Below are positions 12,741-27,286 of a stretch of DNA of 64,000 nt, piece after piece. Made by a program: the position numbers and the translations under genes. Position 1 is the stretch's first letter. Each line of letters opens with the position of its first letter. Below the pieces are notes generated by a model. The model searched no databases and was not told the DNA's origin. It saw nothing but the letters and a program-made list of their open reading frames with translations. Source of the DNA: Micromonospora cathayae (GTDB lineage Bacteria > Actinomycetota > Actinomycetes > Mycobacteriales > Micromonosporaceae); assembly GCF_028993575.1 (NCBI RefSeq), contig NZ_CP118615.1:7035001-7099000 (forward strand). Reading direction: 5' to 3'.

Positions 12741-12935
12741 GGGGCTTCGTCCCTGGTGAATCTCCGCTGACCTGCGGTTCTTCCGTCGTGCCGGACCGCC
12801 GGCCAGCCGGGGTGCCGTCCACCGTCGGGCCAGGGTCCGGTGGGTCGGGTGTCGGACGCACCGCCTCGCGGCACCGCGTTACCATCGGCCGTCTGTGCCA
12901 GAAATGACGGGTTCCTCATGGGGAGGGTGGACGGC

Positions 12936-13838
12936 GTGTTCGACTACGGAGGCCGTACCGGCTACGAGCCGATCAGCGATGTCGATCGCAAGGAGTTCCA
13001 CGAGCAGGGCTTCCTGCTGCTGCGCAACGTACTGACCGAGGACCACCGGGCCGCGCTCGAGGAGGCGGTCGACCGGGTCTACGCCGAGGAGAAGGCCAAG
13101 GGCAACACCACCAAGGACGGAACCCTGCACCTGCTGGGCTTCCTCGAGCGGGACGAACTCTTCGGCGACCTGCTCACCCACCCGATCGCCTTCCCGTACA
13201 TGTGGGGGCTGGCCGGCTGGAACATCTACACCCACCACAACCACCTCGACGTCACCCCGCCGGCGGCGGAGCCGGAGAAGCCGTACTGGGGTTGGCACCA
13301 GGACGGGTACCGGCAGAACTCCGACCCGGAGACGATGGACCCGAACCTGCCCCGGCCGATGTTCTCGCTCAAGGTCGCCTACGTGCTCTCCGACCTGTCC
13401 GAGCACGGTCGCGGCGCGACCAAGGTCATCCCGGGCAGCCACCTGTGGAACTCACTGCCCCGCCCGGACGACCTGACCGTGCACAACCCGGACCCGGAGG
13501 GCACGGTGGAGATCACCGCCAACCCGGGTGACGCCTTCATCTTCGACCGCCGCCAGTGGCACTCCCGGTCGACGAACCTGTCGACCATCACCCGGAAGAT
13601 GCTCTTCGTCGGCTACACCTACCGGTGGATCCGTCCGCTGGACGAGCTGCACATCGACAAGGACGGCGAGTGGTGGGCCAACCGCACGCCGGTACAGCGC
13701 CAGCTCTGCGGTGAGGGCACCCACACCGCGAACTACTGGGGCATCAACTGGAACGGGTACATCGACGACGAGATCCCGCTCCGCAAGGAACTCAAGGAGC
13801 GCGGCCTGCTCAACCGCAACATCCCCTGGCTCCGCTGA
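12936..13838 (+). CDS. Phytanoyl-CoA dioxygenase (PhyH) family oxygenase
   Basis: A 300-residue Fe(II)/2-oxoglutarate-dependent oxygenase. The iron ligands are His and Asp in WGWHQDGY and the distal His in RRQWHSRS, followed by an Arg-containing segment for 2-oxoglutarate. The N-terminus DRKEFHEQGFLLLRNVL is typical of PhyH proteins. GTG 12936 is preferred because GGGGAGG lies 9 bases upstream; ATG 12918 has no ribosome binding site. The substrate is unknown: PhyH proteins hydroxylate lipids or natural products such as ectoine. No biosynthetic partners lie next to it. Confidence 0.82.
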   Translation: MFDYGGRTGYEPISDVDRKEFHEQGFLLLRNVLTEDHRAALEEAVDRVYAEEKAKGNTTKDGTLHLLGFLERDELFGDLLTHPIAFPYMWGLAGWNIYTHHNHLDVTPPAAEPEKPYWGWHQDGYRQNSDPETMDPNLPRPMFSLKVAYVLSDLSEHGRGATKVIPGSHLWNSLPRPDDLTVHNPDPEGTVEITANPGDAFIFDRRQWHSRSTNLSTITRKMLFVGYTYRWIRPLDELHIDKDGEWWANRTPVQRQLCGEGTHTANYWGINWNGYIDDEIPLRKELKERGLLNRNIPWLR

Positions 13839-13935: not shown

Positions 13936-14586
13936 TCAGGCCGGCCCGACTCCGGCGACCAGTCGGCGACGGGCCTTGTCCCGGACGGGTTCGGGCAGGT
14001 CGGGTACGTCGAGCAGGCGGGGCAGCAGCTCCGGTTCCCGGTTCAGGGCCCGGAACACCTCACCGACGGTGACCCCGTGCGCGGGCCGGCTCACCACCTC
14101 GACCGGGTCCCCCACGCCGACCTCACCCGCCCGGAGCACCCGCAGGTACGCCCCGGGCAGCGCCCGCTCGGTGAACCGCTTGATCAGGTCCGGTACGCCC
14201 CAGAAACCGGCGAACGTCCGGCAGGGCGTACGCGGCTTGGTGACCTGGAGCAGCGCGGACCCGACCGCCCACTCCTCGCCGATGACCGCGCCGGTCACGT
14301 CCACGCCGAACGTGCTGAGGTTCTCGCCGAAGCTCCCCGGCGGCACGGCCCGGCCGAGTTCGGCCGCCCACCGGTCGGCGTCCTCCCGCGCGTAGGCGTA
14401 CACCGCCTGGTCGGGGCCGCCGTGGTGGGCCCGTTCCGCGATGAAGTCACCGGTCACCCCGGTCGCCCGGACCGGCACCCGGCCGGCCACCGGCCGCTTG
14501 TCGATCCCGCTGCGTCCACTCGCGTCGCCGGCCCACTCCGCCTCGGTCACCACACCGACGTTCACCGACACCAACCTGCCCGTCAT
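13936..14586 (-). CDS. MOSC domain-containing protein
   Basis: A 216-residue stand-alone MOSC protein of the YiiM type. Visible are ERAHHGGPDQAVYAYAREDADRW, FGENLSTFGVDV and QVTKPRTPCRTFAGFWG, whose Cys is the conserved MOSC cysteine. MOSC domains bind molybdenum cofactor or carry sulfur for it; YiiM-like proteins reduce N-hydroxylated compounds. ATG 14586 fits the family start TGRLVSVNVG. It has no molybdenum genes nearby. Confidence 0.87.
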   Translation of the reverse strand: MTGRLVSVNVGVVTEAEWAGDASGRSGIDKRPVAGRVPVRATGVTGDFIAERAHHGGPDQAVYAYAREDADRWAAELGRAVPPGSFGENLSTFGVDVTGAVIGEEWAVGSALLQVTKPRTPCRTFAGFWGVPDLIKRFTERALPGAYLRVLRAGEVGVGDPVEVVSRPAHGVTVGEVFRALNREPELLPRLLDVPDLPEPVRDKARRRLVAGVGPA

Positions 14587-14665
14587 GCGCGCCAGCCTAC
14601 GGGCGGGCGTCCGCCGGTCGGCGAGTCGTCCCCGAGGTCCACTCCGGGGAGTCGACAATGCCGGG

Positions 14666-15451
14666 GTGACCACCTCCCGTACCGGTCCCGGGCCGGTGCC
14701 CGTCCGACGGCCCCGGCCGACGCCACGGCCCGCCGCCGGGCCGGTGCCAGAGCTGGACTACTACCTGGTGTGTCCCCGGCAGCCGGACGCCGGGTGGAAC
14801 GGGTACGGCGGTCCGGTCGAGGGGATCGTGGTCGAGGAGTTCCGGTTCGACGCGGACCACACGGTCCGCCGGATCGACAGCGCCGCCTGGACGCCGGGTG
14901 AGGTGGGCTGGTGGACGGCACCGGACCTGAGCCGCCGGCTACGGACCGACCCGGCGCTACGCGGCCGGGTGGTCGGCGCGGCCCGCCCCGACGTCGCGGC
15001 CGTCTACCACCGGCTCGGCGGGGGCACGTTGCCGGACGAGGACACCCTGCGCGGCCGGCTGGCCGAGGGCGAGCCCCGGAGGGTGGCCCCGCCGCTGGTG
15101 CTGAACCCGACCCCGGTCGCCCCCGGCGGTCAGGCCACCCGGACGTACCGGGTGCTGTTCGCCCACGAGTTGACCCCGGACGGCCTGGCCCGGCTGGCGG
15201 ACGAGTGGCGGATGGTCCGGCCGGCCGCCACCCGGTCGACGGGGGTGCTCGGCACCGCCCACCGGCGGGTCGGGGCCGACACGTTCCGGTGGGAGCTGCG
15301 CCGGATCGGCTCGGTCGGGGCGTACTGCCTGGACGTGACCGTGGACCTGGCGACCGGCCGGGACGGGACGGTACGACCGGTGCTGCGTGAGCTGACCACG
15401 TCGTTGCGCCGGCAGGGCCTGGTCCCGGTCACGGTCGAGCGGTTCTGCTGA
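14666..15451 (+). CDS. Hypothetical protein, orphan at the island edge
   Basis: About 261 residues that I do not recognise. The N-terminus (1-30) is Pro/Arg-rich. A core from ELDYYLVCPRQPDAGWNGYGG onward looks globular and soluble, without signal peptide or membrane segment. GTG 14666 is the only good start before the core and has a weak ribosome binding site. Its end overlaps the convergent MFS gene by 23 bases. It is transcribed towards the phosphoramidate operon and marks the boundary between core genes and the island. Confidence 0.6.
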   Translation: MTTSRTGPGPVPVRRPRPTPRPAAGPVPELDYYLVCPRQPDAGWNGYGGPVEGIVVEEFRFDADHTVRRIDSAAWTPGEVGWWTAPDLSRRLRTDPALRGRVVGAARPDVAAVYHRLGGGTLPDEDTLRGRLAEGEPRRVAPPLVLNPTPVAPGGQATRTYRVLFAHELTPDGLARLADEWRMVRPAATRSTGVLGTAHRRVGADTFRWELRRIGSVGAYCLDVTVDLATGRDGTVRPVLRELTTSLRRQGLVPVTVERFC

Positions 15452-16907
15452 CCCTCGTCGGCCCGCCCGGCCCACCCGGCCTGACCGGATCGCCCGACCC
15501 GCCCGGGTCGACGGCCGCCGACCGCTCCGGCTCGGTGTCCCGGCGTGGGACCAGGAGGAAGGTGAGGAGGCCACCGAGCGCCACCACCGCCGCGCCGACC
15601 AGTTCGGTGGCGCGGAAGCCGACACCCGCGCCGAGCATCGTCAGGTAGCCGGCGATCGCCACCGCCCCGCCGAGGTGGCTCATCGACTCGAACAGCGCCG
15701 AGGCGGTGCCCCGGTCGTCCGCCGGGGCCTCGCTGATGCACTCCCGGGTGAGCCCGACGTAGACCGGCCCGGAGCACAGACCCCACAGCACCAGCCACGG
15801 GAGGAACCCGGCGACGCTGTCCCGGGTGGCGATCATCGCCAGCGACAGGGCGCACAGCGCCATCGCGGTGACCACCAGGGTCCGCGAGCTGAACCGGCGC
15901 AGCAACGCCGGCCCCAGCAGGGAGCTGACCACGCCGCCGACGAGGACCGGCGACAGGGTCAGCCCGGCCGCCTCGGCGGACAGGCCGTGCCGCTGTTGCA
16001 GGGCCAGGCTGCCGATCACGATCACCGCGTTGTAACCGGCGCAGTAGGTGGCGAAGGCGAGGTAGCTGCCGGCCCGGCGCCGGGACCGGAGCAGACGGGG
16101 CTTCACCAGCGGGTCCGCCGACCGGCGTTCGACCAGCACCAGCACGGCCAGCAGGACCAGGCCGGTCCCGCCGAACAGCACGGGACGGAGCAGCCCGGCC
16201 CGCTCGCCGGTCTCCTGGAGGCCCAGCAGCAGCAGGACGAGTCCGGCGCTGACCAGCAGGGCGCCGGCCACGTCGAGCCGTTCGCCCCGCGCGGCGCGCG
16301 GCCGGTCGTCGGGCAGCAGGACCAGTGTCGCGGCGACCGCCGCCACCCCGACCGGCACGGCGCCCAGGAACACCCACCGCCAGCCGAACTGGGTGGTGAC
16401 GAAACCACCGAGCATCGCGCCGGTGAGGCCCGCCGACCAGGCCGCGAAGGCGATCACCGAGAAGACCCGGCTGCGCCACGGCTCCGTCTCGAACCGGCTG
16501 GCCGCGATGGACAGCGCGGCGGGAATGGCGAACGCGGCGGCGACGCCCTGCAGGGCCCGACCGGCCAGCAGCAACGGCAGGGTCGGGGCGAGTCCGGCCA
16601 GCAGGGTGGCCCCGGTGCACAGCACCAGGCTCGCCACCAGGAATCGGCGACGGCCGTACAGGTCGCAGACCCGCCCACCGAGCAGCAGGAACGCGCCGAT
16701 GGCCAGCGAGTAGAGGCTCACCACCCACTGCAGGACGCCGGGACGCAACCCGAACTCGGCACCGATCGCCGGCAGTGCCGTGGCGACGGCCAGGCTGTCG
16801 AACAGCACCAGGAACGAGGCGCTCGCCAGCAGCAGGGCCACCGCCCAGGACCGGCCGGCCGGAGGCCCGGTGGCCTCCGGCGCGACCGGCCGCAGGGTCT
16901 CGGTCAC
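15429..16907 (-). CDS. MFS exporter (DHA2-like) of the phosphoramidate operon
   Basis: A 492-residue major facilitator permease with an estimated 12-14 hydrophobic segments. The loop GGRVCDLYGRRRF after the second helix is the MFS motif A, and the motif GAMLGGFV in the fifth helix is the antiporter motif C typical of drug-H+ exporters (DHA2, EmrB/QacA type). The last 35 residues are a hydrophilic Pro/Gly/Arg tail. It is the ninth and last gene of the minus-strand operon and overlaps the sulfotransferase stop by four bases. The likely job is export of the operon product or self-protection. Substrate is inferred from context only. Confidence 0.85.
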   Translation of the reverse strand: MTETLRPVAPEATGPPAGRSWAVALLLASASFLVLFDSLAVATALPAIGAEFGLRPGVLQWVVSLYSLAIGAFLLLGGRVCDLYGRRRFLVASLVLCTGATLLAGLAPTLPLLLAGRALQGVAAAFAIPAALSIAASRFETEPWRSRVFSVIAFAAWSAGLTGAMLGGFVTTQFGWRWVFLGAVPVGVAAVAATLVLLPDDRPRAARGERLDVAGALLVSAGLVLLLLGLQETGERAGLLRPVLFGGTGLVLLAVLVLVERRSADPLVKPRLLRSRRRAGSYLAFATYCAGYNAVIVIGSLALQQRHGLSAEAAGLTLSPVLVGGVVSSLLGPALLRRFSSRTLVVTAMALCALSLAMIATRDSVAGFLPWLVLWGLCSGPVYVGLTRECISEAPADDRGTASALFESMSHLGGAVAIAGYLTMLGAGVGFRATELVGAAVVALGGLLTFLLVPRRDTEPERSAAVDPGGSGDPVRPGGPGGPTRVSRTARP

Positions 16908-17785
16908 GGCGCCCCCGGCAACTGGTAGCCGTACTCGGCGGCCACCAGCCGCAGGTCCGGGCCGGTGAACAGGGTCGCCAGCTCGGGCGTCATCCAGCGC
17001 TTCCAGCCCTGGGTACGCCCCTCCCGGACGACCCGGCGGGTGGCGGTCGCCGGGTCACCGTCGCCGGCCGCCACCCGGTCCTCGTGGGCCCGCATCCGGT
17101 CGAACGAGCTGGCCTCGACGGCGGCGGCGACGGCGTCCCGGTCGACGGCGACGCCGAGCCGGCCCAGCGCCGTGGCGACCACCTCGACCGGGCGGGTCTT
17201 CAGGTCCTCGAAGCGCAGCACGTCGACGTGTGCGCAGCTGTCCGCCCGGCGGGCCCACGCCGTGTAGAAGGCGGGCCAGTCGTCGACCGGGCTCGGGCTG
17301 AAGTCCCCCGGACCCCGCAGCCAGTCGGGGAAGCTGGCCGGCACCCGGTCCCACTCCTCCTCGGCGAACCCGACCCGCCACTGGTGGCTGGCGTAGATGG
17401 CGTCCCGGGGGTCGCGCACCAGGATCCAGACGCCACCGACGGGTGCGTCGCCGAAGACCGCCGGCGGGTGGTGGGTCTTGACGAACCGCGGCCAGCGCCG
17501 GACCGGTTCGGCCCCGCCGACGTCCTTGTCGTGCTGGGAGGCGAGATGCCGGCGGTACGGGGTGTGCGCCGCCGCGACGACCGCCCGTCCGTCGCGGTGC
17601 AGTTCCTCGGTGTACGCGTCGACGTAGTTCAGGCGCAGTTCGGCCAGGATGTTGCCGATCAACGACTGGCCCGAGCCGCCGTGGCTGGCGACGACGATGT
17701 CGTCGGGGCCGAGTCGGCTCACGTTCCGGCGGTACAGGTCACTGACCCGGGCGTCGGCGCGCCGGCTGTCCGGCAGCGTGGTCAC
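16904..17785 (-). CDS. Sulfotransferase-fold protein, proposed phosphoramidyl transferase
   Basis: A 293-residue protein with all main sulfotransferase motifs: the 5'-phosphosulfate-binding loop SHGGSGQSLIGN (34-45), the catalytic-base segment FVKTHHP (101-107), the 3'-phosphate-binding segment VRDPRDAIYASH (123-134) and the REGRTQGWK region (about 258-266). Sulfotransferases normally use PAPS. Here the operon lacks ATP sulfurylase and instead seems to make 3'-phospho-CDP-phosphoramidate, which shares the 3'-phosphonucleotide shape of PAPS. I infer that it moves phosphoramidate to an acceptor hydroxyl or amine. Ordinary sulfation with PAPS from elsewhere in the cell remains the alternative. 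Starts and stops overlap both neighbours by four bases. Confidence 0.8.
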   Translation of the reverse strand: MTTLPDSRRADARVSDLYRRNVSRLGPDDIVVASHGGSGQSLIGNILAELRLNYVDAYTEELHRDGRAVVAAAHTPYRRHLASQHDKDVGGAEPVRRWPRFVKTHHPPAVFGDAPVGGVWILVRDPRDAIYASHQWRVGFAEEEWDRVPASFPDWLRGPGDFSPSPVDDWPAFYTAWARRADSCAHVDVLRFEDLKTRPVEVVATALGRLGVAVDRDAVAAAVEASSFDRMRAHEDRVAAGDGDPATATRRVVREGRTQGWKRWMTPELATLFTGPDLRLVAAEYGYQLPGAP

Positions 17786-18564
17786 GGGCGGTCCACCGCT
17801 GCCCGGGACCGGGCCCGCGCCAGCCAGCCGACCGTCTCGTACGGGATGTCCAGCTCGTCCACCCGCAGCGACCGGACGTAGTCGTCGATGTCGGCGAGGA
17901 TCGCCTCGAACTGGTCGCCGGCCTGGCTCTCCAGGATCCCGTGGGACCGCCAGGCGGCCAACCAGTCCGGCACCGACACCCGGTGCCGCACCGGCTCCCG
18001 CAGCACCTCGGGCTCCTCGAACAGGCCGCTGGCCCGGATCACCGGGGCCTGGTCCTCGCGGCGGACCCCGTACCCGTAGCCGGGGATGCGCCGGCGGATG
18101 ATGTCCTCGACGGCGGCCTGGGTCGGGTCGGTCAGGTCACGGTGGTTCCAGATGCAGGCGAACCAGCCCCCCTCGCGCAGGATCCGGACGGTCTCCCGCA
18201 GCGCCAACGGCCGGTCCGTGGTGGCGAACGACGACCCGAACGTCACCAGGTCGTACGTGTCGGAGGGCAGGCCGGTCTCCTCACCGACGGCGACGTGCCA
18301 GGTGACCGTGCCGCCGCTGGTGCGTTCGATGCCGATGGCGCGCATGGCGTCGTTGGGTTCGACGGCGTCCACCAGGCAGCCGCGGGCCAGCAGGTCGACC
18401 GTCAGGTGGGCGTTGCCCGCCCCGACGTCGGCGACCCGGGGGGTGGGGCGGCCGGTGGTGGCGACGATCCGGTCGATCGCCCTGGGCGCGTAGGCGGGCC
18501 GCTGGGTGTAGGTGGCGGCGAGGTGGGTGTAGTCCCACTTGACGTACTGCTGGGTCGAGGTCAT
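17782..18564 (-). CDS. Class I SAM-dependent methyltransferase
   Basis: A 260-residue methyltransferase of the type-11 group. The SAM-binding motif I is VADVGAGNAHLT (44-55), the acidic residue ending strand 2 is in VDAVEPN (66-71), and LALRETVRILREGGWFACIWN forms the typical later motif. ATG 18564 is chosen because AAAGGA lies upstream and the preceding residues are low-complexity. It overlaps the sulfotransferase start by four bases. C. jejuni methylates its capsule phosphoramidate, so O-methylation of the phosphoramidate or of the acceptor is plausible here. The target cannot be read from sequence. Confidence 0.85.
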   Translation of the reverse strand: MTSTQQYVKWDYTHLAATYTQRPAYAPRAIDRIVATTGRPTPRVADVGAGNAHLTVDLLARGCLVDAVEPNDAMRAIGIERTSGGTVTWHVAVGEETGLPSDTYDLVTFGSSFATTDRPLALRETVRILREGGWFACIWNHRDLTDPTQAAVEDIIRRRIPGYGYGVRREDQAPVIRASGLFEEPEVLREPVRHRVSVPDWLAAWRSHGILESQAGDQFEAILADIDDYVRSLRVDELDIPYETVGWLARARSRAAVDRP

Positions 18565-18605
18565 CTCAGGGGTGTCCTTTCGGGGTGTCGGGTGGGCTGG
18601 GCGGT

Positions 18606-19481
18606 TCACTCCTTCCGGCTGGGCGGGACGGGTGGGTAGTCGAGGAAGCCGCGGATCACGTCGATGAAGGCCGGGTACTCGTCGTCGGCGACGTTGTGGC
18701 CGCTGTTCTCGAACATGCGCAGTTGCGCGCCGGGGATGGCCGCCGCGATCTCCTCGGAGAACTCGGGGGCGCAGATCCAGTCGTGTCGGGCCCCGATCAC
18801 CTGGGTGGGTACGGTGATGTCGGCGAGCTGCCCGGTGACGTCGTAGGTGTGCAGGTCACGGCCGTACGCCGCGTTGATCGCCTCCGGCGAGAAGATCGGC
18901 TGGCGGGAGCGTTCGCGGCTCAGGTCGAACCGCCGGGAGTACAGCGGCCCCATCGTCTCGAAGTACTCCCGCATCTCGTCGGCACTGGCGAAGGCCCCGG
19001 CGAACAGTCGCGCGGCCACCTCCTGCTGGGCGGGCGTGCCGCGCTCGGCGACCGTCTCCTGGGCGCGCTTGAGGAACCGGTGGTCCGGTGCGGTCACCAC
19101 CAGGATCAGGTGGCTGAGCCGGTGCGGGTAGCGGACCGCGTAGGACAGCGAGACCATGCCGCCGTACGAGATGCCGAGCAGGCCGATCCGGTCGAGGCCG
19201 AGGTGCTGGCGCAGCGCCTCCAGGTCCGCCACGTGGTCGTCCATGGTGTACGTCTCCGGCGGCGCGGGGTCGGACCGGCCGCTGCCGCGATGGTCGAAGT
19301 AGACCAGCTGCGCCTTCTCGCTCAGCGGGGAGTAGGCCGGTTTGAAGCCGCTGTGGTCGCCGCCCGGTCCGCCGGGGACCACGAAGAGGACGGGTTTCTG
19401 CCGCATCCCGGCTCCGTCGGGCACCAGTCCGGCGCCCTCGATGTCGAAGAAGATCCGGGTGCCCCGGATGTCCGCGTACAT
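18606..19481 (-). CDS. Alpha/beta hydrolase, proline iminopeptidase-like (S33)
   Basis: A 291-residue hydrolase. Motifs are VVPGGPGG (oxyanion side, about 34-41), DHRGSGRSDP (63-72), the nucleophile elbow GISYGG with Ser105, the acid in ARHDWICAPE and the His in NSGHNV near residue 266. HGGPGG plus DQRGxGxS is the pattern of proline iminopeptidases and related amino-acid amidases. GAGGAG precedes the ATG. Within the operon it might trim an amino-acyl or peptide part of the product or release a masked form. This role is inference; the catalytic set looks intact. Confidence 0.83.
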   Translation of the reverse strand: MYADIRGTRIFFDIEGAGLVPDGAGMRQKPVLFVVPGGPGGDHSGFKPAYSPLSEKAQLVYFDHRGSGRSDPAPPETYTMDDHVADLEALRQHLGLDRIGLLGISYGGMVSLSYAVRYPHRLSHLILVVTAPDHRFLKRAQETVAERGTPAQQEVAARLFAGAFASADEMREYFETMGPLYSRRFDLSRERSRQPIFSPEAINAAYGRDLHTYDVTGQLADITVPTQVIGARHDWICAPEFSEEIAAAIPGAQLRMFENSGHNVADDEYPAFIDVIRGFLDYPPVPPSRKE

Positions 19482-19502
19482 GCGTGGTGCTCCTCTCGCG
19501 GG

Positions 19503-20735
19503 TTATCGGTGGCTCGCGGCCGGCGGCCGGAGCAGGTCCCGGACCACCGGTCCGAGGGCGTCGGCGACCAGGGCGTTGCCGTGCGGGCCGCAGTGCGGCC
19601 CCAGCCGGCCGTGCGTGTAGAGCGCGGTGCGGTCCGGTTCCCGCCGGAACCGGGTGGTGAGGTCCACCACCGGCAGCACCGTGCCCAGCTCGGCGAAGGT
19701 CCGCTGGTGGGCGGTGCCGCCGTCGGCCCGGTCCAGGTCGGCCAGTTGCGGGACGACCACCAGGACCGGGTGTTTGCCGGCGGTGCGGCAGACCGTGGCG
19801 AACCGTTCGACCAGCGCGGCCAGCAGGCGGCGGGCCGCCGGGTCGGCGTAGAGCCGCCGGGTCCACCGGGCGTTGTCCCGCAGGACCACGCCGAACGCGG
19901 CCCGCCGGGCCCGCTCCCGCCGCTGCGGGCCACGGCCCAGGCCGGTGAGCAGGTGTCCGAGCACCGGCAGGTGCCGCTGGCCCCGCCGGACGAGCTTGGG
20001 CAGGTACGGGAAGCCGAGCACGTCGCGGCGGAACTTCGCGGCGTGGAACGGGTCCAGCGCGGTGATCTCCGGCAGCCGGGCGTGGTAGGTGGCGTAGTCA
20101 CCGGGCGCGCGGATCGGGCTGGGGTGCAGGGTCAGCCCGCCCGGGTCCAGGGTGAACCGGGGCTTGAAGGCGAGCACGTTGCCGTACTCGAAGAAGTGCT
20201 TCCAGTACGAGTGCACCCGGGCGATGGTCTCCGGCACCACGCCCATGATCACCACCTGGGACTCCAGCGTCGGCAGTTCCCGTTCCAGTCGCAGCAGGGC
20301 CTGGTCGAGCCCGTAGTTGCCGACGCCGTAGTTCGCCACCCCGACGTCGAGGAGCCGGCCGAGCTGGTGCGGCCAGGTCTGGTCGTCGTCGACCAGCCGG
20401 CAGAACGTGAACGAGTCCCCGAACGCCGCGACCGGCGCGGGCCCGTCCGCCAGCCGGGGATCGTGCCGGCGGGCCCGCCCGTCCAGCCGGTAGCCGGTGG
20501 TGCCCCGGTCGGTGGGCTCGGTGCCCCGCTCCCCCGGGCGGCGGCACCAGCCCAGCTCCGGGTCGAACGAGCGGGCCACGTGCCGGTCGACCAGGGCCGG
20601 CGCGATGGCGGGCGCGGTGTCCCGCGCGGTGACCAGCCAGGGGAAGTCCGGACGCAGCCGGTGCACCAGCGCGGCGACGCCGGCCTCCACGGCGAGATAC
20701 CCGGCCGGCACGGCGAGAAGCCTGGAAAGTCTCAT
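19503..20735 (-). CDS. SGNH/GDSL hydrolase-like protein with N-terminal anchor
   Basis: A 410-residue protein. Residues about 3-25 are hydrophobic (signal anchor or signal peptide). The SGNH block I is AFGDSFTF with the nucleophilic Ser, a later ANYGVGNYGLDQALLRLERE segment holds the conserved Gly/Asn region, and GPHCGPHGNALVA near the C-terminus gives the catalytic His. Similar proteins often occur in polysaccharide or lipid O-acylation loci. Its start overlaps the stop of the APS-kinase-like gene by four bases. It could act on the operon product as an esterase or acyl/phosphoramidyl transferase, probably outside or at the membrane. The function is not established. Confidence 0.75.
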   Translation of the reverse strand: MRLSRLLAVPAGYLAVEAGVAALVHRLRPDFPWLVTARDTAPAIAPALVDRHVARSFDPELGWCRRPGERGTEPTDRGTTGYRLDGRARRHDPRLADGPAPVAAFGDSFTFCRLVDDDQTWPHQLGRLLDVGVANYGVGNYGLDQALLRLERELPTLESQVVIMGVVPETIARVHSYWKHFFEYGNVLAFKPRFTLDPGGLTLHPSPIRAPGDYATYHARLPEITALDPFHAAKFRRDVLGFPYLPKLVRRGQRHLPVLGHLLTGLGRGPQRRERARRAAFGVVLRDNARWTRRLYADPAARRLLAALVERFATVCRTAGKHPVLVVVPQLADLDRADGGTAHQRTFAELGTVLPVVDLTTRFRREPDRTALYTHGRLGPHCGPHGNALVADALGPVVRDLLRPPAASHR

Positions 20736-21247
20736 CCGACCCGCACCGCCAGCGCGTCCAGGATCCGCTCGACCAGGTCCTCCGGCGTACCGTCCCGGCC
20801 GGAGCTGTCCAGCACCAGGTCCGGTTCGGCCGGCCGGGGGAACGGGATGTCCACGCCGACGACGTCGCTCGCCGCGCCGGCCAGCGCCGCCCGGTAGAGG
20901 CCCTTGGTGTCCCGCTCGACCACCACCTCCATCGGCACGTCCAGCAGCACCTCGAAGTAGCCGTCGAGATGTTCCCGGTTCCACCGCTGCCACTCCGGGA
21001 AGATGGACAGCACCGCCGCGACCACGTGGATGTCCTGCTGGTCGAGCATCCGGCACAGCCGGCTCAGCCGCTCGGCGTTCACCCGCCGGCCGGCCACGTC
21101 GTGCGACAGCGTGCCGCCCCAGACCTCCCGCAGCAGGTCACCGTCCAGGTAGACCAGGTTGGGGTGGTCGGCGCGCAGCCGGGCGGCGAGGCGCAGCCCC
21201 ACCGTGGTCTTGCCCGCCCCGGACAGCCCGATCAACCAGACGATCAT
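20732..21247 (-). CDS. APS-kinase-like protein, proposed CDP-phosphoramidate 3'-kinase
   Basis: A 171-residue CysC-family kinase. P-loop GLSGAGKT (7-14), the DGD acidic motif (35-37), RDTKGLY (112-118) and GVDIPFP (131-137) are all present. CysC normally phosphorylates APS at the 3'-hydroxyl. No ATP sulfurylase, PAPS reductase or other sulfate gene is near. Its neighbours instead match the C. jejuni phosphoramidate set, in which the CysC homologue Cj1415 phosphorylates cytidine diphosphoramidate at the 3'-OH. I therefore call it a CDP-amidate kinase homologue. True APS kinase activity is the alternative. The ATG overlaps the previous gene's stop. Confidence 0.82.
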   Translation of the reverse strand: MIVWLIGLSGAGKTTVGLRLAARLRADHPNLVYLDGDLLREVWGGTLSHDVAGRRVNAERLSRLCRMLDQQDIHVVAAVLSIFPEWQRWNREHLDGYFEVLLDVPMEVVVERDTKGLYRAALAGAASDVVGVDIPFPRPAEPDLVLDSSGRDGTPEDLVERILDALAVRVG

Positions 21248-22008
21248 CTCCGCGCCTCCTGTCCTCCGGCGAACGCCAGCCGTCCCCGCCGGACCAGGTC
21301 CGTGGCGACCGCGAGGTCGTCGGCGTCGTCCACCTCGGCCCAGGCGTCCGGGCACGGCACGGTGCCGATCCGTTCCCCGGCGTCGACCAGGGCCTGGAGC
21401 AGGCTGGTCAGGTCCAGGGCGTCCACCTGCCGGGGCGGCAGCCCGGCCAGCAGCCGTTCCACCGCCGCCCAGGCCGGTGGGGTGAACCGCAGCAGGCCCA
21501 GGTACTGGCCGGTCACCTCGTCCACCGAGTGCGGGGTGCCACCGATCTCGGAAAGCGTGCCGTCCGGCCGCCGCCGGAACGTCTCCGCGTCGTCCAGCGG
21601 GTCGGCGAACCGCAGCCGCCACAGCCGCAACCAGTCCGGGTCGTAACTGATGGCGAGGTCCCCGTCGGCGGCGAGGAGGTTCCGCACGGTGGCCGCCGAG
21701 TAGACGATGTCGCCGTACGAGACGACGCACGGCCCGGACCGCAGCCACGGCGCGGCGGCGAGCAGCGAGCCGACCATGTTGGTCCGCTCCCACCGGGGGG
21801 CCGGGAACACCGGCAGCCCCTGCGCGGCCACCAGGTCGGCGCGGTAGCCGGCCACCACCGCCAGCTCGGTGACGCCGCCGGCGGTCAGCGCCGCGCGCTG
21901 CCAGTCCAGCAGCGGTCGCCCGGCCAGCGGCACCAGGCACTTGGGTCGCCGCGCGGTCAGTTCACCCAGCCGGCTGCCCCGTCCGGCGGCCAGCACGACG
22001 CCCCTCAC
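21244..22008 (-). CDS. Nucleotidyltransferase, proposed CTP:phosphoglutamine cytidylyltransferase
   Basis: A 254-residue sugar-nucleotidyltransferase-fold protein. It shows LAAGRGSRL (6-14) with the downstream RPKCLVPLAG (21-30) that holds the catalytic Lys, RTNMVGSL (75-82), SYGDIVYS (97-104) with the metal-binding Asp, WRLRFADPLDDAE (130-142) and GQYLGLL (167-173). This pattern is that of the LicC/Cj1416-like group rather than ordinary NDP-sugar enzymes. Cj1416 joins CTP and L-glutamine phosphate to give CDP-L-glutamine. The order in the operon supports the same reaction. GTG 22008 overlaps the amidotransferase stop (GTGA). Choline-phosphate cytidylyltransferase activity is the main alternative. 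Confidence 0.82.
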   Translation of the reverse strand: MRGVVLAAGRGSRLGELTARRPKCLVPLAGRPLLDWQRAALTAGGVTELAVVAGYRADLVAAQGLPVFPAPRWERTNMVGSLLAAAPWLRSGPCVVSYGDIVYSAATVRNLLAADGDLAISYDPDWLRLWRLRFADPLDDAETFRRRPDGTLSEIGGTPHSVDEVTGQYLGLLRFTPPAWAAVERLLAGLPPRQVDALDLTSLLQALVDAGERIGTVPCPDAWAEVDDADDLAVATDLVRRGRLAFAGGQEARR

Positions 22009-22613
22009 CGGAGGGCCCCGAAGTGCGACCGGAACAGCGCGACGTCCTCCCGGGCCAGGTGGTGCGGGAGTCGTTCCGGGTGCCACATCAGGCCCACCAC
22101 CGGTGCCGTCTCGTGCCGTACCCCCTTCACCACCCCGTCGGCGGTACGGGCCCAGGCCCGCAGCGGCGTCCGGGTGGTGTGCGCGGCCCAGTGGTGGTAG
22201 CTGTTGACCACCCGCTGCCGGCCGTCGACCAGTACGGTCTGCCGGGCGGTCACGTGCCCGGCCACCCGGGACAGCGGCACCCCGAACCGGCGCAGCAGCA
22301 GTTGCATGCCCCGGCACACCGCCACCACCGGCAGGTTCGCGCCCAGTGCCGCGTCGAGCAGCGCCGCCTCGGTGGCGTCCCGTTCCGGGGCGTCCCCGCC
22401 GAGTTCGGCCAGGTCGTTGCCGCCGGTCAGCAGGACACCGTCGGGGCGTACCCGGCGCAGCAGCCGGTCCGCCGTCTCCGGATGGTTCGGTACCGGCACC
22501 CCGCACAGGCCGCCGGCCGCCAGCAGCGGCCACCAGCGCTGGTCGACCGCGTCGCTGCGGGTGCCGTGGGTGGCGTCGACCAGCACCCGCGAGGAGACCG
22601 CCACGCACCTCAT
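22005..22613 (-). CDS. Class I glutamine amidotransferase, proposed gamma-glutamyl-CDP-amidate hydrolase
   Basis: A 202-residue PuuD/GATase1-like hydrolase. The nucleophile Cys100 lies in VAVCRGMQ, and His178 and Glu180 in MWHPE complete the triad. TGGNDL (63-68) and NSYHHWA (137-143) are further family features. In C. jejuni Cj1417 cleaves the glutamyl group from CDP-L-glutamine to leave cytidine diphosphoramidate. No synthetase partner needing ammonia is present, which fits a stand-alone hydrolase. ATGA overlap with the upstream kinase gene and GTGA overlap with the downstream gene point to coupled translation. Confidence 0.83.
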   Translation of the reverse strand: MRCVAVSSRVLVDATHGTRSDAVDQRWWPLLAAGGLCGVPVPNHPETADRLLRRVRPDGVLLTGGNDLAELGGDAPERDATEAALLDAALGANLPVVAVCRGMQLLLRRFGVPLSRVAGHVTARQTVLVDGRQRVVNSYHHWAAHTTRTPLRAWARTADGVVKGVRHETAPVVGLMWHPERLPHHLAREDVALFRSHFGALR

Positions 22614-25021
22614 CGCAGCAGCTCCACCCGGCGGTTCAGGCAGTCGATGGTCAGCCGGTTCGCCGACGACCACCGGTCGTACAGGGTCTCGCCGACGCCG
22701 ATCACCGCCGGCACCCCGAACTGGTGGGCCCGGATCGCCATGTGCGAGTTCGCGCCGCCGTAGCGGGTGACGAAGCCGGCCACCCCCTCGGAGAAGATCC
22801 AGTCGTACCCGGGGTCGCCGCTGGGCAGCATGAGGATCCGACCGCGCAGGTCGGTGGGGTGCGTCGACACCTGCGCCACCGGGCCGGTCGCGCGACACTG
22901 GGTCACGTAGTTCGGTTCGGTACCGGGCACGTGGAAGGCGGTCACGTCGGCGGGCCCGGTGATGATCGGCGGCAGCACCAGCCGGCGGGTCAACCCGTAC
23001 TGCTGCCGGCCGTCGGCGGCGCACCGGGCCAGCACCTCCGCCGGGCTGGACGCGCTGCGGTAGAGGGTGTCCACGCAGTCCACGCCCACGTACGACATGT
23101 CGTCCGGGGACAGGCCCACGCCGCCGCCGAGCTGCCGCAGCAGCGACAGCGCCTCGCTGAGGTGCCGGGAGAACTCGAACTTGGCGTTCTCCCGGTGCTC
23201 GATGCTGGTGACGATGAACGCCAACAGCCCGTACGCGTCCTGGTCGAGGCGGTGCTGGCGAAGCAGGTCGTCGATGGCCCGCATGGTGTCCGCCGGCAGC
23301 TCGAACGGCTGTCGCGGGTCGCCGGGCGGCCGCCGGCCGGGCCAGTCGAAGTAGCCGTCGGGGTCCTCGTCGTAGCGTGGGCAGCGGATGTCGTACGTGC
23401 CCGGACGCAGGAAGCCGTACCGGTCCAGGAAGTCCTCCCGGCTCAGCAGCGCGCGGTCGTGCAGCATCCGGTTGGTCACCGTGTCCAGGGAGGCCATCAG
23501 CCGGGCCACGTCCGCCTCGGTGAGCACCCCCACCGCCACCAGCGAGCGCAGGATCTCGGTGGCGACGAAGCCCAGCCGCGCGAAGCCGGCGAAGGCCAGC
23601 GTGCCGAACCGCCGGCAGTCCTCCAGCAGCCAGTAGATCTGGGCCGGCAGGTCCAGCTCCGACCGGCGTACCTGGTCGAGTTTCGCGCCGAGCGAGGTGA
23701 TGTTGGCCAGGTCCTCGCGGCGGGCCGGATGGTCGGGGTCCATCAGGTCGTTGGTGAGGGTCCGCAGGGCGGCGACCAGGTCGTCGCGTTCCCGCGCGCT
23801 GAACAGGTCACCGGTCTGGTCCGCCAGCCGCTGCCGCAGGGTGAACGAGTAGCAGGAGAAGACCACCTCGAACTCGACCTTGTCGTGCAGCTCGGGGCGA
23901 CGGGTGAGCCGGTCGACGCAGTGGTCGACCAGGCGGGCCGCCAGGTGGTCGTCGACGCTGGCGGGGATCAGCGAGTTGCAGCTCTCCCGCACGTCGACGT
24001 AGGGCAGCCCGAAGAAGTCGAGCATCAGCGGGAAGCCCCGCACGTCCCGGTACCCGTACCGGGCCCGCTGGTCGGCCCACTGGGCGTCGGTGATGAGCCG
24101 GCGGTACAGCGACAGGGCGAGCGGCCGGGGCCGGGTGCCGACGATCTCGGCGGGGTTCCAGTCCGGCATCACCCCGAAGACGGTCCGCTCGCCCAGCAGC
24201 CGGGGGTGCGGCTGGCCGGCGGTACGCACCTTCTCCGCCACCGCGTCCAGGCCCCGCTGGTGCGCCTCGTTGTCGCCGTCCGCCGGCACCACCAGCGGAC
24301 GCACCTGGAGCAGGTACAGCTCGTCGGCCCGGTCGTAGGCGAACTCGATGTCGAGGTTGGCCTGGCCGAACAGGTCCTCCAGTTCGGCCGCGAGCGCCGT
24401 CAGCCGGCGCAGCCGGGGGTCGACCCCGGGTCGGATCGCGCCCCGCCAGGCGTAGTAGGTGTGCAGCCGGGCCCGGTGCCCGTTGGTGACCGCCGACGGG
24501 TCACCGCCCTGCTCGTAGTTGACCACCAGGTACGGGGCGCCGGTGTTCGGGTCGCAGGTGAACACCACCCCGGTCATGGTGGCGTCGCAGACGTACGGCT
24601 GGACCAGCACCAACTGCTCGTCGAGCGACCAGGCGGCCGGGTCGCCGGGGCGTTCCCGGTAGGACGCGATGACGTCCTCGACAGCGTCCCGCAGCGCGGC
24701 GCGTCCCTCGACCCCGCCCACCGAGCGGTAGCCGCCGGGCATCATCGTGGCCGGGTCGTCCTCCTGGCGGGTGCTGCTGCGCACGATCAGTGGCCGGTGC
24801 CCCCAGTCGAGGGCGGCCACGTCGTCGAGGACGCGGTCCCGGTCGGCGTGCCAGCGTCCGACCGGGAAGTGGTGCAGCGGCAGGATCCGGGCGGTACGGA
24901 TCAGCGGCGTGAGCTGTTCCAGCGTCTCGGCCTTGGAGCCGAACAACGCGGCCGGCCGGTCCGGGCCGTGCCCCGGTGGTGGGCCGGAGGACGGGGCCGC
25001 GGCAATCAGATCGGACGTCAT
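22610..25021 (-). CDS. PEP-synthase-like kinase, proposed L-glutamine kinase
   Basis: An 803-residue three-part enzyme. Residues about 75-245 form the ATP-grasp domain of PPDK/PEP synthase (IVRSSTRQEDD, TGVVFTCDPNTG, then LYLLQVRPL). A central domain starts with DWNPAEIVG (287-295). The C-terminal swivelling domain carries GGANSHMAIRAHQFGVPAVIG with the phospho-carrier His760. There is no PEP/pyruvate TIM barrel, so it cannot be PEP synthase. The C. jejuni homologue Cj1418 makes L-glutamine phosphate with release of AMP and Pi. Rifampicin phosphotransferase shares the domain types but lacks this context. AAGGA lies before the ATG. It is the first gene of the operon. Confidence 0.83.
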   Translation of the reverse strand: MTSDLIAAAPSSGPPPGHGPDRPAALFGSKAETLEQLTPLIRTARILPLHHFPVGRWHADRDRVLDDVAALDWGHRPLIVRSSTRQEDDPATMMPGGYRSVGGVEGRAALRDAVEDVIASYRERPGDPAAWSLDEQLVLVQPYVCDATMTGVVFTCDPNTGAPYLVVNYEQGGDPSAVTNGHRARLHTYYAWRGAIRPGVDPRLRRLTALAAELEDLFGQANLDIEFAYDRADELYLLQVRPLVVPADGDNEAHQRGLDAVAEKVRTAGQPHPRLLGERTVFGVMPDWNPAEIVGTRPRPLALSLYRRLITDAQWADQRARYGYRDVRGFPLMLDFFGLPYVDVRESCNSLIPASVDDHLAARLVDHCVDRLTRRPELHDKVEFEVVFSCYSFTLRQRLADQTGDLFSARERDDLVAALRTLTNDLMDPDHPARREDLANITSLGAKLDQVRRSELDLPAQIYWLLEDCRRFGTLAFAGFARLGFVATEILRSLVAVGVLTEADVARLMASLDTVTNRMLHDRALLSREDFLDRYGFLRPGTYDIRCPRYDEDPDGYFDWPGRRPPGDPRQPFELPADTMRAIDDLLRQHRLDQDAYGLLAFIVTSIEHRENAKFEFSRHLSEALSLLRQLGGGVGLSPDDMSYVGVDCVDTLYRSASSPAEVLARCAADGRQQYGLTRRLVLPPIITGPADVTAFHVPGTEPNYVTQCRATGPVAQVSTHPTDLRGRILMLPSGDPGYDWIFSEGVAGFVTRYGGANSHMAIRAHQFGVPAVIGVGETLYDRWSSANRLTIDCLNRRVELLR

Positions 25022-25040
25022 CGTTATCCTTCGCTTTCCG

Positions 25041-25068
25041 GGCCGAAGCGGGGAAACGCTTCCGGGCC
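25041..25068 (-). promoter_or_regulatory. Leader hairpin before the phosphoramidate operon
   Basis: GGCCGAAGCG (25041-25050) and CGCTTC..GGCC (25057-25068, two-base bulge) can fold about 20 bases upstream of the first start codon. It might affect translation of the kinase gene. Only the pairing is seen. Confidence 0.35.
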
Positions 25069-25378
25069 GAGGCTGGGGATGTGCGCATGTCCTGGTCGAC
25101 GGTGTGCCGTCGACGGTTCAGCGATTCACGCCGGGAGCGGCCGCTTGCCCGGTGTAACCGCATGAGAAATACGTCCCCGCACCCACTGTGGATAAACCAG
25201 ACGGTATTCCGTCATCTGAATACGACGCGGATTCACCTGTCGTCGCTGGTCAATGAGGTAAGAGAGAAAGGGGATTGACCGGCGCGTGGCCGTCGCCGGG
25301 ATGCCCCTGTGCTAAGGTGCGCGGCCCGGTCGATCTCCGGGGCCTGTCGGGCGACCCGGTCCCGCACCCGACGACGAC
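25069..25378. other. Intergenic region with relatively AT-rich patch, probable operon promoter area
   Basis: No gene is credible here. The stretch 25160-25260 is clearly richer in A/T than its surroundings and is the likely promoter area of the nine-gene minus-strand operon. It contains an inverted repeat GACGG-TATT-CCGTC (25200-25213) and a single TTATCCACA-type DnaA box on the minus strand (25187-25195). I could not find a convincing -35/-10 pair. Confidence 0.4.
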
Positions 25379-25411
25379 GGGCCCCGGCCGGCGGGTCGCC
25401 GGCCGGGGCCC
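25379..25411 (-). terminator. Terminator of the sugar ABC operon
   Basis: A perfect 14-bp stem, GGGCCCCGGCCGGC (25379-25392) with GCCGGCCGGGGCCC (25398-25411), and a 5-base loop, 14 bases after the last permease stop codon. No U-tract follows, as is common in actinobacteria. Confidence 0.8.
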
Positions 25412-25424
25412 GTACCACCGGACG

Positions 25425-26300
25425 TCAGCCCTTGACGGCCCCCGCCACCAGGCCGGACACCATCCGGCGCTGGACCAGCAGGAAGAACACGATCACCGGC
25501 AGGGTGAAGATGGTGGAGGCGGCCATCACCGGCCCCCACGCGGTGTCGTCGCGACCGAAGAAGAACGTCATCGCGACCGGGAGGGTGTACCGGTCCTGGT
25601 CGTTGATGAAGGTCAACGCGAAGATCAGTTCGTTCCAGGCGGTGATGAACGAGAAGATGCTCGTCGCCACCAGGCCGGGCGCGACCAGCGGGAAGAGGAC
25701 CTTCCGGAAGATCTGCGCCCGGCTGGCGCCGTCGATCGCCGCCGCCTCCTCCAGTTCCTTCGGTACGGCGGCCACGAAGCCGCGCAGCATCCACACCGCG
25801 AACGGCAGCGAGAAGCCCAGATAGGTGAGGATCAGGCTGGGCAGGGTGTTGTAGAGCCCGAGTCGCTGGATCATCAGGAACAGCGGAATGACCAGCGCCT
25901 CCAGCGGAATCATCTGCACGATCAGCAGCATGATCAGGAAACTGGTCCGGAGTTTGAACCGGAACCGGGCCACCGCGGTCGCGGCGAGCAACGCGACCAG
26001 CCCGCTGAGCAGCACCGTCGCCCCGGCGACCAGGACGCTGTTGAGGAAGAAGTCCGCGAAGCTGACGCCCGGGATGAGGTTGCCGGTGAGGATGTCCCGG
26101 TAGTGCTGGAGGGTCGGTTCGGCCGGCACCGGGCGGGGCGTCGACGAGAAGATCTCCTGGTTGGGCTTCAGCGACGTGGCGATCATCCAGTAGACCGGGA
26201 AGGCCGCGAAGGCCGCCACCAGCAGCCCGGCCGTGTTGAGGGCGATCCGTCCGGCGGGCCGCCGCCGGCGGGACGCACGCGGCGCCGTCGTGCCGGCCAT
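25425..26300 (-). CDS. Carbohydrate ABC transporter permease (MalG type)
   Basis: A 291-residue inner-membrane permease with six predicted membrane segments. The EAA loop EEAAAIDGASRAQIFRKVLFPL, which docks with the ATPase, is in the usual place about 100 residues from the end. The family imports oligosaccharides from the binding protein. The ATG at 26300 overlaps the stop of the partner permease (ATGA). No ATP-binding subunit is encoded here; in actinobacteria one shared ATPase (MsiK) often serves several such importers. Confidence 0.93.
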   Translation of the reverse strand: MAGTTAPRASRRRRPAGRIALNTAGLLVAAFAAFPVYWMIATSLKPNQEIFSSTPRPVPAEPTLQHYRDILTGNLIPGVSFADFFLNSVLVAGATVLLSGLVALLAATAVARFRFKLRTSFLIMLLIVQMIPLEALVIPLFLMIQRLGLYNTLPSLILTYLGFSLPFAVWMLRGFVAAVPKELEEAAAIDGASRAQIFRKVLFPLVAPGLVATSIFSFITAWNELIFALTFINDQDRYTLPVAMTFFFGRDDTAWGPVMAASTIFTLPVIVFFLLVQRRMVSGLVAGAVKG

Positions 26301-27286
26301 CACTCCTCCTCCTGCTTGAGCACCATGCGGACGTAGAGGCCGGTGACCACGAGCAGGATCAGGGTCAGGATCACCGCGATGGCCGCGCCGAGACCGTACT
26401 TCGGCGGCGGCGAGAACGCCTCCGCGTACGAGTAGATGGAGAGCATGAAGGTCGGCCGGTCCTGGGTGCCGCCGGCCAGCACGAACTGCTGGGTGAAGAC
26501 CTTGAAGTCCCAGATGGTGGAGAGCACGATCAGGATGCCGAACACCGGTCGGAGCAGCGGGAAGGTGACCTTCCAGAAGACCCGCCACGGTCCGGCCCCG
26601 TCCACCCGGGCCGCCTCGTGCAGTTCGCTCGGTACGCTCTTCAGCCCGGCGAGCACGCTGACCGCGATGAACGGGAACGAGTGCCAGACCACCACCAGGG
26701 TGAGGATGGTGAAGAAGAGCAGCGGCGAGTTGAACCAGCCGTAGCCGGTCCAGTCGGTGCGGCCGAACAGCGCCTGGGACAGCCCGTCGGGCAGGGCGTT
26801 GAACAGCCAGGTGACCAGCCCACTGGTGTCGTCGAAGATCCACTTCCAGACGATGGTGCCGGTCAGCGCCGGGGTCGCCCAGGCGAGCATCACGCAACTG
26901 GCGACGAAGGTCGCCATCCGCTTGCTCAGCCGGTTGAGCAGCAGCCCGACCAGGGTGCCGAGGATCATGGTGAGGACCACGTTGGCCGCGGCGAAGAGCA
27001 CGGTGTTGCGCAGCACCGTCCGGAAGAACGGGTCACTGAGGATCTGGACGTAGTTGTCCAGCCCGACCCACGGCCACGCGCGGTCACCGCGGAGTTGGCG
27101 GACGTTGTTGAGCCGGTGGAACGACATCCACACGACCTGGCCGAGCGGCCAGAGCAGCAGCACGCCGATGATCGCCAGGCAGGGCAGGAGCAGCAGGTAC
27201 GGCAGGCGGTCCACCCGGGGCCGCCGCCGCGCGGGGGTCTCCCCCGCGTCGGCGGCGGCCTTCGGTGTGTCGGTCAGGGTGCTCAC
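26300..27286 (-). CDS. Carbohydrate ABC transporter permease (MalF type)
   Basis: A 328-residue permease partner. The N-terminal 35 residues are cytoplasmic and Arg/Pro-rich, followed by six membrane segments. The EAA motif is LHEAARVDGAGPWRVFWKVTFPLL. GTG 27286 is chosen because it overlaps the binding-protein stop (GTGA) and starts the STLTDTPK tail. It forms the channel with the MalG-type subunit. Substrate class is sugar, probably di- or oligosaccharide. Confidence 0.93.
   Translation of the reverse strand: MSTLTDTPKAAADAGETPARRRPRVDRLPYLLLLPCLAIIGVLLLWPLGQVVWMSFHRLNNVRQLRGDRAWPWVGLDNYVQILSDPFFRTVLRNTVLFAAANVVLTMILGTLVGLLLNRLSKRMATFVASCVMLAWATPALTGTIVWKWIFDDTSGLVTWLFNALPDGLSQALFGRTDWTGYGWFNSPLLFFTILTLVVVWHSFPFIAVSVLAGLKSVPSELHEAARVDGAGPWRVFWKVTFPLLRPVFGILIVLSTIWDFKVFTQQFVLAGGTQDRPTFMLSIYSYAEAFSPPPKYGLGAAIAVILTLILLVVTGLYVRMVLKQEEE

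Follow-up and report, generated by a model that had tools for sequence, protein, structure and literature searches.

A nine-gene insert in Micromonospora cathayae with a predicted CDP-phosphoramidate pathway

Introduction

Natural products seldom contain a phosphorus-nitrogen (P-N) bond, and the route through cytidine diphosphate (CDP)-phosphoramidate is described, within the open literature that we searched, for Campylobacter capsules only. Could an actinobacterium use the same activated phosphoramidate to make something else? The question is raised by nine consecutive genes in a 64,000-nucleotide stretch of Micromonospora cathayae (positions 7,035,001 to 7,099,000 of NZ_CP118615.1, hereafter the window), whose host genome is one 7.2-Mb contig. 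A first-pass annotation had described them as a minus-strand operon, in the order kin, gat, ntp, aps, sgnh, abh, mt, st and mfs, and this layout was confirmed: the nine open reading frames (ORFs) all lie on the minus strand, span 25021 to 15429 and overlap by 4 bases at 6 of the 8 junctions. Pfam assigns folds to 8 of the 9 proteins. The order kin-gat-ntp-aps fits that of Cj1418 to Cj1415 of C. jejuni. PMC3907429 treats cj1415-cj1418 as a set, with cj1415 downstream of cj1416.

With some reserve, we favor the reading that the nine-gene insert converts L-glutamine to 3'-phospho-CDP-phosphoramidate (kin, ntp, gat and aps), after which the product would be methylated (mt), transferred by st and exported by a major facilitator superfamily (MFS) protein.

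Results

The kinase and the APS-kinase-like protein stand apart from their namesake enzymes

Family models and phylogeny point strongly to a placement of kin outside the phosphoenolpyruvate (PEP) synthases. The protein passes the curated full-length model PRK05849 (849.6 bits, cut-off 501), which is itself named 'hypothetical protein', its meaning as a glutamine kinase being our own reading. PEP synthase models yielded at most 54.2 bits, with cut-offs of at least 598; among them kin fails TIGR01418 (42 versus 739.75 bits) and PRK06464 (45 versus 598 bits). In a kinase tree, one branch (SH-aLRT 94) splits 90 module rows from 7 comparison rows, and the kinases of the four actinobacterial loci are monophyletic (100). 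Of the 23 listed comparison loci, 7 yielded a row, four of these 7 being clear PEP synthases; since L147 (branch 10) and perhaps L011 seem to have been read in a wrong frame and are to be distrusted, the contrast with PEP synthase rests mainly on L139-L142. On model scores and tree we rejected a true PEP synthase, in line with the first-pass annotation. The protein carries His760 within GGANSHMA (residues 755-762), and this His of GGxxSHM is presumably catalytic. The SHM site is common to ten aligned relatives, and GGxxSHM is kept in 88 of 89 other loci, the exception (L102) having a split frame.

A strong case, again from family models and a tree, can be made that aps is a paralogue of adenosine 5'-phosphosulfate (APS) kinase and not the enzyme itself, as had been proposed. 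It passes PRK05541 (161.6 bits, cut-off 127), a model itself named adenylyl-sulfate kinase, and misses the APS-kinase equivalog TIGR00455 (98.9 bits, cut-off 138.7), a pattern seen in all 7 proteins tested (window aps and six relatives). The APS tree unites 20 of its 22 true APS-kinase rows in a single clade (100/100) with the window protein outside; the remaining two, true_L134 and true_L136, sit on branches >8 and seem to have been read in a wrong frame. Window aps groups with its counterparts from the congener G030, Actinoallomurus and Streptacidiphilus (100/97) inside an 11-row module group (100/95). Module proteins mostly carry F83 (72/75), W89 (69/75) and N90 (71/75), where true APS kinases mostly have Y, A/T and A/V, and the genome holds a separate true APS kinase at 397179-397700 (182 bits). 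A true APS kinase was rejected on the TIGR00455 miss and the tree position. The kinase and APS-kinase-like domains, predicted for the first and fourth steps, occur in one open frame, as a natural fusion, in eight loci (L029, L030, L032, L034, L035, L039, L046 and L064), and true-type and module-type APS kinase domains lie together in L105 (3443-5164 and 8603-9226), a natural comparison pair.

The placements of the two remaining module proteins, likewise drawn from models, are moderate for gat and, taken on its own, weak for ntp. The best NCBIfam model for gat is NF045546 (gamma-glutamyl-CDP-amidate hydrolase; 83.5 bits), against 42.2 bits for PuuD, which was rejected. The same model is best for ten gat relatives (11/11 with the window protein), at 87 to 125.8 bits, none of them over the cut-off. 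The protein contains VCRGMQ (99-104) and WHPER (177-181), whose Cys and His-Pro-Glu we take to be class I amidotransferase residues. For ntp, Pfam gives NTP_transf_3 (3.5e-20), scores for the 25 listed NCBIfam models all stay below the respective cut-offs, and relatives carry the annotation 'phosphocholine cytidylyltransferase family'.

A widespread module within a rare actinobacterial cluster

We scanned one genome per species by profile and compared the best 80 of 529 confirmed candidate stretches, a sample of the closest rather than a random one. All four genes were present in 70 of the 80 loci, within 8.7 kb and with a median span of 5.1 kb; several of the 10 loci short of four genes lie on short contigs. 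At least nine phyla are represented among the labelled rows of the APS tree, in addition to Melainabacteria and Sericytochromatia. Above its cut-off, the kinase family was found in 2 of 61 relatives, in 1 of 396 genomes from the phylum and in 1 of 250 from the taxonomic family, the window's own genome being counted each time. With its full set in 70 of the 80 loci, the four-gene module is thus widespread, and rarity applies to the surrounding actinobacterial cluster, not to the module. The four-gene block that the first-pass annotation proposed to look for in other Actinobacteria is indeed found there, and the breadth of the module itself had escaped it.

Three other actinobacterial loci were compared. 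Actinoallomurus (L026) has all nine genes in two divergent operons, kin-gat-ntp-aps-sgnh and abh-mt-st-mfs, with a LuxR-type gene between them. The congener G030 has 8 of 9: abh is missing, mt has diverged, and an aldo/keto reductase is present. In Streptacidiphilus (L027), kin-gat-ntp-aps-sgnh is followed by genes for an L-amino-acid ligase, a class III aminotransferase and a NUDIX protein, with a second ligase-like gene nearby.

Matches to the kinase family at 1e-20 were found in 14 plasmid records. On a Vibrio alfacsensis plasmid (L021, 6443-8848), cysN and cysD stand divergent beside kin-gat-ntp, no aps relative was found in the locus, and the arrangement hints at a link to sulfate activation. 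On an Agrobacterium vitis plasmid (L023, 12310-14997), genes for a LysE exporter and a CDP-alcohol phosphatidyltransferase come after kin-gat-ntp, relatives of aps and mt were not found, and a different use of CDP-phosphoramidate is possible. Six single-protein patterns found no kin relative among the viral contigs. The single match in the phage collection (L024, MT837632.1, 652-3687) is an unverified faecal scaffold labelled 'Bacteriophage sp.' that may be bacterial DNA.

The cluster is a horizontally acquired insert

At the corresponding site of six congeners (G002, G006, G008, G012, G018 and G019; 17.6-17.8 kb each), none of the nine genes has a match at 1e-10 (6/6). In 5 of the 6 a MOSC gene, named by reading and not by family search, follows the sugar-ABC genes after ~24-129 bases, and in the sixth ~67 bases separate these genes from the next one. 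Homology of the flanks ends at window positions 14599-14622 and 25422-25425 (blastn, five congeners). Because the block is missing in the congeners and flank homology stops at its edges, the nine genes and a 235-aa ORF look like one piece (Table 1), and the cluster is an insert, acquired horizontally. It bears no compositional mark (GC content 0.738, flanks 0.732), and no convincing repeat was found at its ends, each end having been searched separately and not against the other. The G030 copy lies mid-contig, at ~221-231 kb of C3, with the ABC gene of that genome on C23. A PhyH gene at 12918-13838 was rejected as a member, since its position is outside the insert and 2 of the 6 congeners without the operon retain it.

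The 235-aa ORF has no Pfam match and no relative at 1e-3 in L016, L017 and L026-L105. No sigma-70-like promoter was found in 14500-26500, where terminator-like sites number 2 versus 1.6 expected, and no Rfam family reached its gathering score in the window.

Table 1. Coordinates in the window and predicted functions of the cluster genes and the inserted segment
Feature	Position	Strand	Description	Evidence
kin	22610..25021	-	PEP-synthase-like N-kinase; predicted L-glutamine kinase	PRK05849, GGANSHMA, tree
gat	22005..22613	-	class I glutamine-amidotransferase fold; predicted gamma-glutamyl-CDP-amidate hydrolase	NF045546 best model, VCRGMQ, WHPER
ntp	21244..22008	-	LicC-like nucleotidyltransferase; predicted phosphoglutamine cytidylyltransferase	Pfam NTP_transf_3
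aps	20732..21247	-	APS-kinase paralogue; predicted CDP-phosphoramidate 3'-kinase	PRK05541, tree
sgnh	19503..20735	-	SGNH-fold protein, N-terminal helix	
abh	18606..19481	-	alpha/beta hydrolase, proline-iminopeptidase type	Abhydrolase_1
mt	17782..18564	-	S-adenosylmethionine methyltransferase; predicted O-methylation of phosphoramidate	Methyltransf_11
st	16904..17785	-	sulfotransferase-fold protein; predicted phosphoramidyl transferase	
mfs	15429..16907	-	DHA2-type drug exporter family; predicted product exporter	MFS_1
235-aa ORF	14744..15451	+	convergent with mfs, within insert	absent from congeners
inserted segment	14600..25424		between sugar ABC permease gene and MOSC-type gene	congener comparison (blastn)

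A sulfotransferase-fold protein with a remodelled loop

The st protein has the SULT fold of sulfotransferases that depend on 3'-phosphoadenosine 5'-phosphosulfate (PAPS). The 5'-phosphosulfate loop reads TYPKSGTT in the PAPS-dependent SULT, StaL and Teg12 enzymes and SHGGSGQS in st, with G replacing K in a profile-to-SULT alignment. All three clusters that have st carry G at this basic-residue position, and the genome's two other sulfotransferase-fold proteins over the Pfam cut-off retain K or R. As the predicted donor mimics PAPS and the loop lacks the basic residue seen in structurally solved sulfotransferases, st is a likely candidate for the phosphoramidyl transferase.

Sulfotransferase-like proteins lie near kin in 18 of 88 loci by a seed profile (six of the 18 supplied the seeds) and in 39 of 88 after iteration, with 0 reversed-sequence matches; Pfam confirms 8 of 10 that were picked. 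No plasmid match to st was found at 1e-6. In Paenibacillus kobensis (L062, 2790-5567), an AMP-binding enzyme is fused to a sulfotransferase-like domain immediately before the kinase gene.

Accessory genes

Common to all four actinobacterial loci is sgnh; among 396 genomes of the phylum, it was found at 1e-15 in that of the window only. It is not exclusive to phosphoramidate loci, a notion rejected because Natrinema has a partial relative (45.7%, covering 37% of the query) with no such genes within 9 kb. The SGNH protein of crocagin biosynthesis, CgnD, which frees the core from the leader peptide (PMC10070186), is 15% identical to sgnh. The abh protein matches Abhydrolase_1 (6.7e-34) and stays below the cut-off of TIGR01250 (110.4 bits, cut-off 167.65); no match to it was found within 35 kb of the G030 locus, and it may be accessory or serve self-protection. 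For sgnh and abh together, acceptor processing and self-protection are both candidate roles. Relatives of mt occur in 62 of 80 loci, 35 of them above 200 bits and 27 lower-scoring. The mfs protein matches MFS_1 (1e-50), its best NCBIfam model, efflux_EmrB, being reached at 171.4 bits (cut-off 230.2), and it is present in all three clusters that have st.

Discussion

Under the reading that we favor, kin would phosphorylate the amide nitrogen of L-glutamine through His760, ntp would join the product to CMP, gat would cut off the glutamyl part to leave CDP-phosphoramidate, and aps would phosphorylate the 3'-OH, giving a PAPS look-alike. These four reactions are predicted by homology with the C. 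jejuni enzymes, among which we assume the assignment of steps between Cj1416 and Cj1417. For the remainder, which we infer in this analysis only, mt would likely methylate the activated phosphoramidate, st, whose fold binds 3'-phospho-nucleotides, would take the PAPS look-alike as donor and pass the phosphoramidate to an acceptor, and mfs would export the decorated acceptor. The MFS gene, together with the lack of a glycosyltransferase match among the nine proteins, suggests that the product may be a small molecule that leaves the cell. The overall interpretation of the first-pass annotation is partly supported, by the family placements of kin and aps and by the best model of gat, the gat score itself falling short of that model's cut-off.

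Several observations weigh against this reading. The link to the Campylobacter proteins runs through family models and gene order only, and gat falls far below the NF045546 equivalog cut-off of 250. The 11-row group that holds window aps is sister to the true APS kinases, and the module aps rows therefore do not form one clade. The fifth gene shared by the actinobacterial loci is sgnh and not st, and the G030 mt is just 35% identical to that of the window. For st, the structure model was built on 5 sequences (mean pLDDT 71.3), and the Ser of the 3'-phosphate site is variable, position +8 after Arg being A, S and A in the three st proteins. The basic loop residue is kept elsewhere (R in L029 and L032, K in L105), so its loss was rejected as a strict mark of every phosphoramidate locus. 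The Streptacidiphilus genome, despite its kin-gat-ntp-aps-sgnh block, has no st relative at 0.001, and st is therefore not required in every such pathway. The wider association of sulfotransferase-like proteins with kin was counted within the fetched flanks of kinase loci only; Pfam is not significant for 2 of the 10 picked proteins, the iterated profile may drift, and a profile of two ordinary sulfotransferases reaches 5 of 88 loci only (L026, L028, L041, L053 and L084).

The clear PAPS-sulfotransferase fold of st and the sister position of the window aps group would also fit a true sulfation branch, in which aps makes PAPS and st sulfonates, giving a product with P-N and sulfo groups like sulphostin or phaseolotoxin. 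Natural phosphosulfamates do exist, one of them from Streptomyces (PMC6429109 and PMC9113183), and the Vibrio plasmid carries cysD and cysN beside kin-gat-ntp. We nevertheless consider sulfation unlikely, given that aps lies outside the true APS kinase clade and under the APS-kinase cut-off, that the genome has its own APS kinase elsewhere, and that the st loop is devoid of a basic residue. Sulphostin is likewise an actinobacterial P-N metabolite, and nothing was known of its biosynthesis according to a 2021 review (PMC9113183); its expected ornithine precursor and N-sulfo group set it apart from the window operon.

The module might instead decorate an actinobacterial cell-surface glycan or lipid, as in capsule loci, with the MFS gene serving something else. 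This too appears improbable, since neither the nine proteins nor the 235-aa ORF has a glycosyltransferase match in Pfam (where sgnh and the ORF match nothing), the three st-bearing clusters all retain mfs, and the Streptacidiphilus module is paired with amino-acid ligases and an aminotransferase. A further doubt concerns the substrate of the kinase, which could be another amide or amine, the four proteins then forming a related yet different N-phosphorylation pathway: PRK05849 is named as a hypothetical protein, and N-kinases resembling pyruvate phosphate dikinase (PPDK) have been described or proposed for phaseolotoxin (phtL) and agrocin 84 relatives (PMC4530439) and for aniline activation in Desulfatiglans (PMC7500099). 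We give this very little weight, because in 70 of the 80 loci kin is conserved alongside a nucleotidyltransferase and a protein resembling gamma-glutamyl-CDP-amidate hydrolase, a combination that suits glutamine as the carrier.

Among known systems, the C. jejuni pathway to the O-methyl phosphoramidate (MeOPN) of the capsule (Cj1415-Cj1418, Cj1421 and Cj1422) has, by enzyme family, the same kind of four-member set, with a kinase resembling PEP synthase, a hydrolase resembling an amidotransferase, a cytidylyltransferase and an APS-kinase-like enzyme, and methyltransferase relatives accompany the module in 62 of 80 loci. Unlike the MeOPN capsule locus, the nine window genes include no capsule genes, having sgnh, abh, st and a drug-type MFS gene instead. 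Phaseolotoxin (pht) and agrocin 84 likewise involve a PPDK/PEP-synthase-like enzyme (PhtL; AgnD1 and AgnD2) proposed to form the N-P bond of a small molecule, and the available portion of PMC4530439 names no four-enzyme CDP route for them. ATP-grasp peptide ligases, proposed for phaseolotoxin, are lacking in the window cluster. An N-kinase of PPDK fold in a small-molecule cluster is therefore not new in itself. In the open literature we found neither an actinobacterial CDP-phosphoramidate cluster nor a sulfotransferase-fold phosphoramidyl transferase, a weak negative, as subscription papers were mostly outside its scope. The features without a counterpart in the literature searched are the complete set of four genes in a compact cluster of an actinobacterium and the sulfotransferase-fold candidate.

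Seen across many phyla, the module may tentatively be viewed, though we hold this less than firmly, as part of a second PAPS-like economy in which phosphoramidate replaces sulfate: an APS-kinase paralogue would add the 3'-phosphate to CDP-phosphoramidate, enzymes of the sulfotransferase fold, in many of which the 5' loop is remodelled, would transfer the P-N group to acceptors, and the actinobacterial cluster would be its secreted-metabolite branch. The four-gene signature is a direct search handle, and the st gene is a testable candidate for moving phosphoramidate to an acceptor. If the proposed pathway is true, this small group of actinobacterial genes produces a new phosphoramidate metabolite, by a pathway that ordinary annotation hides under the names PEP synthase, PuuD, sugar transferase and CysC.

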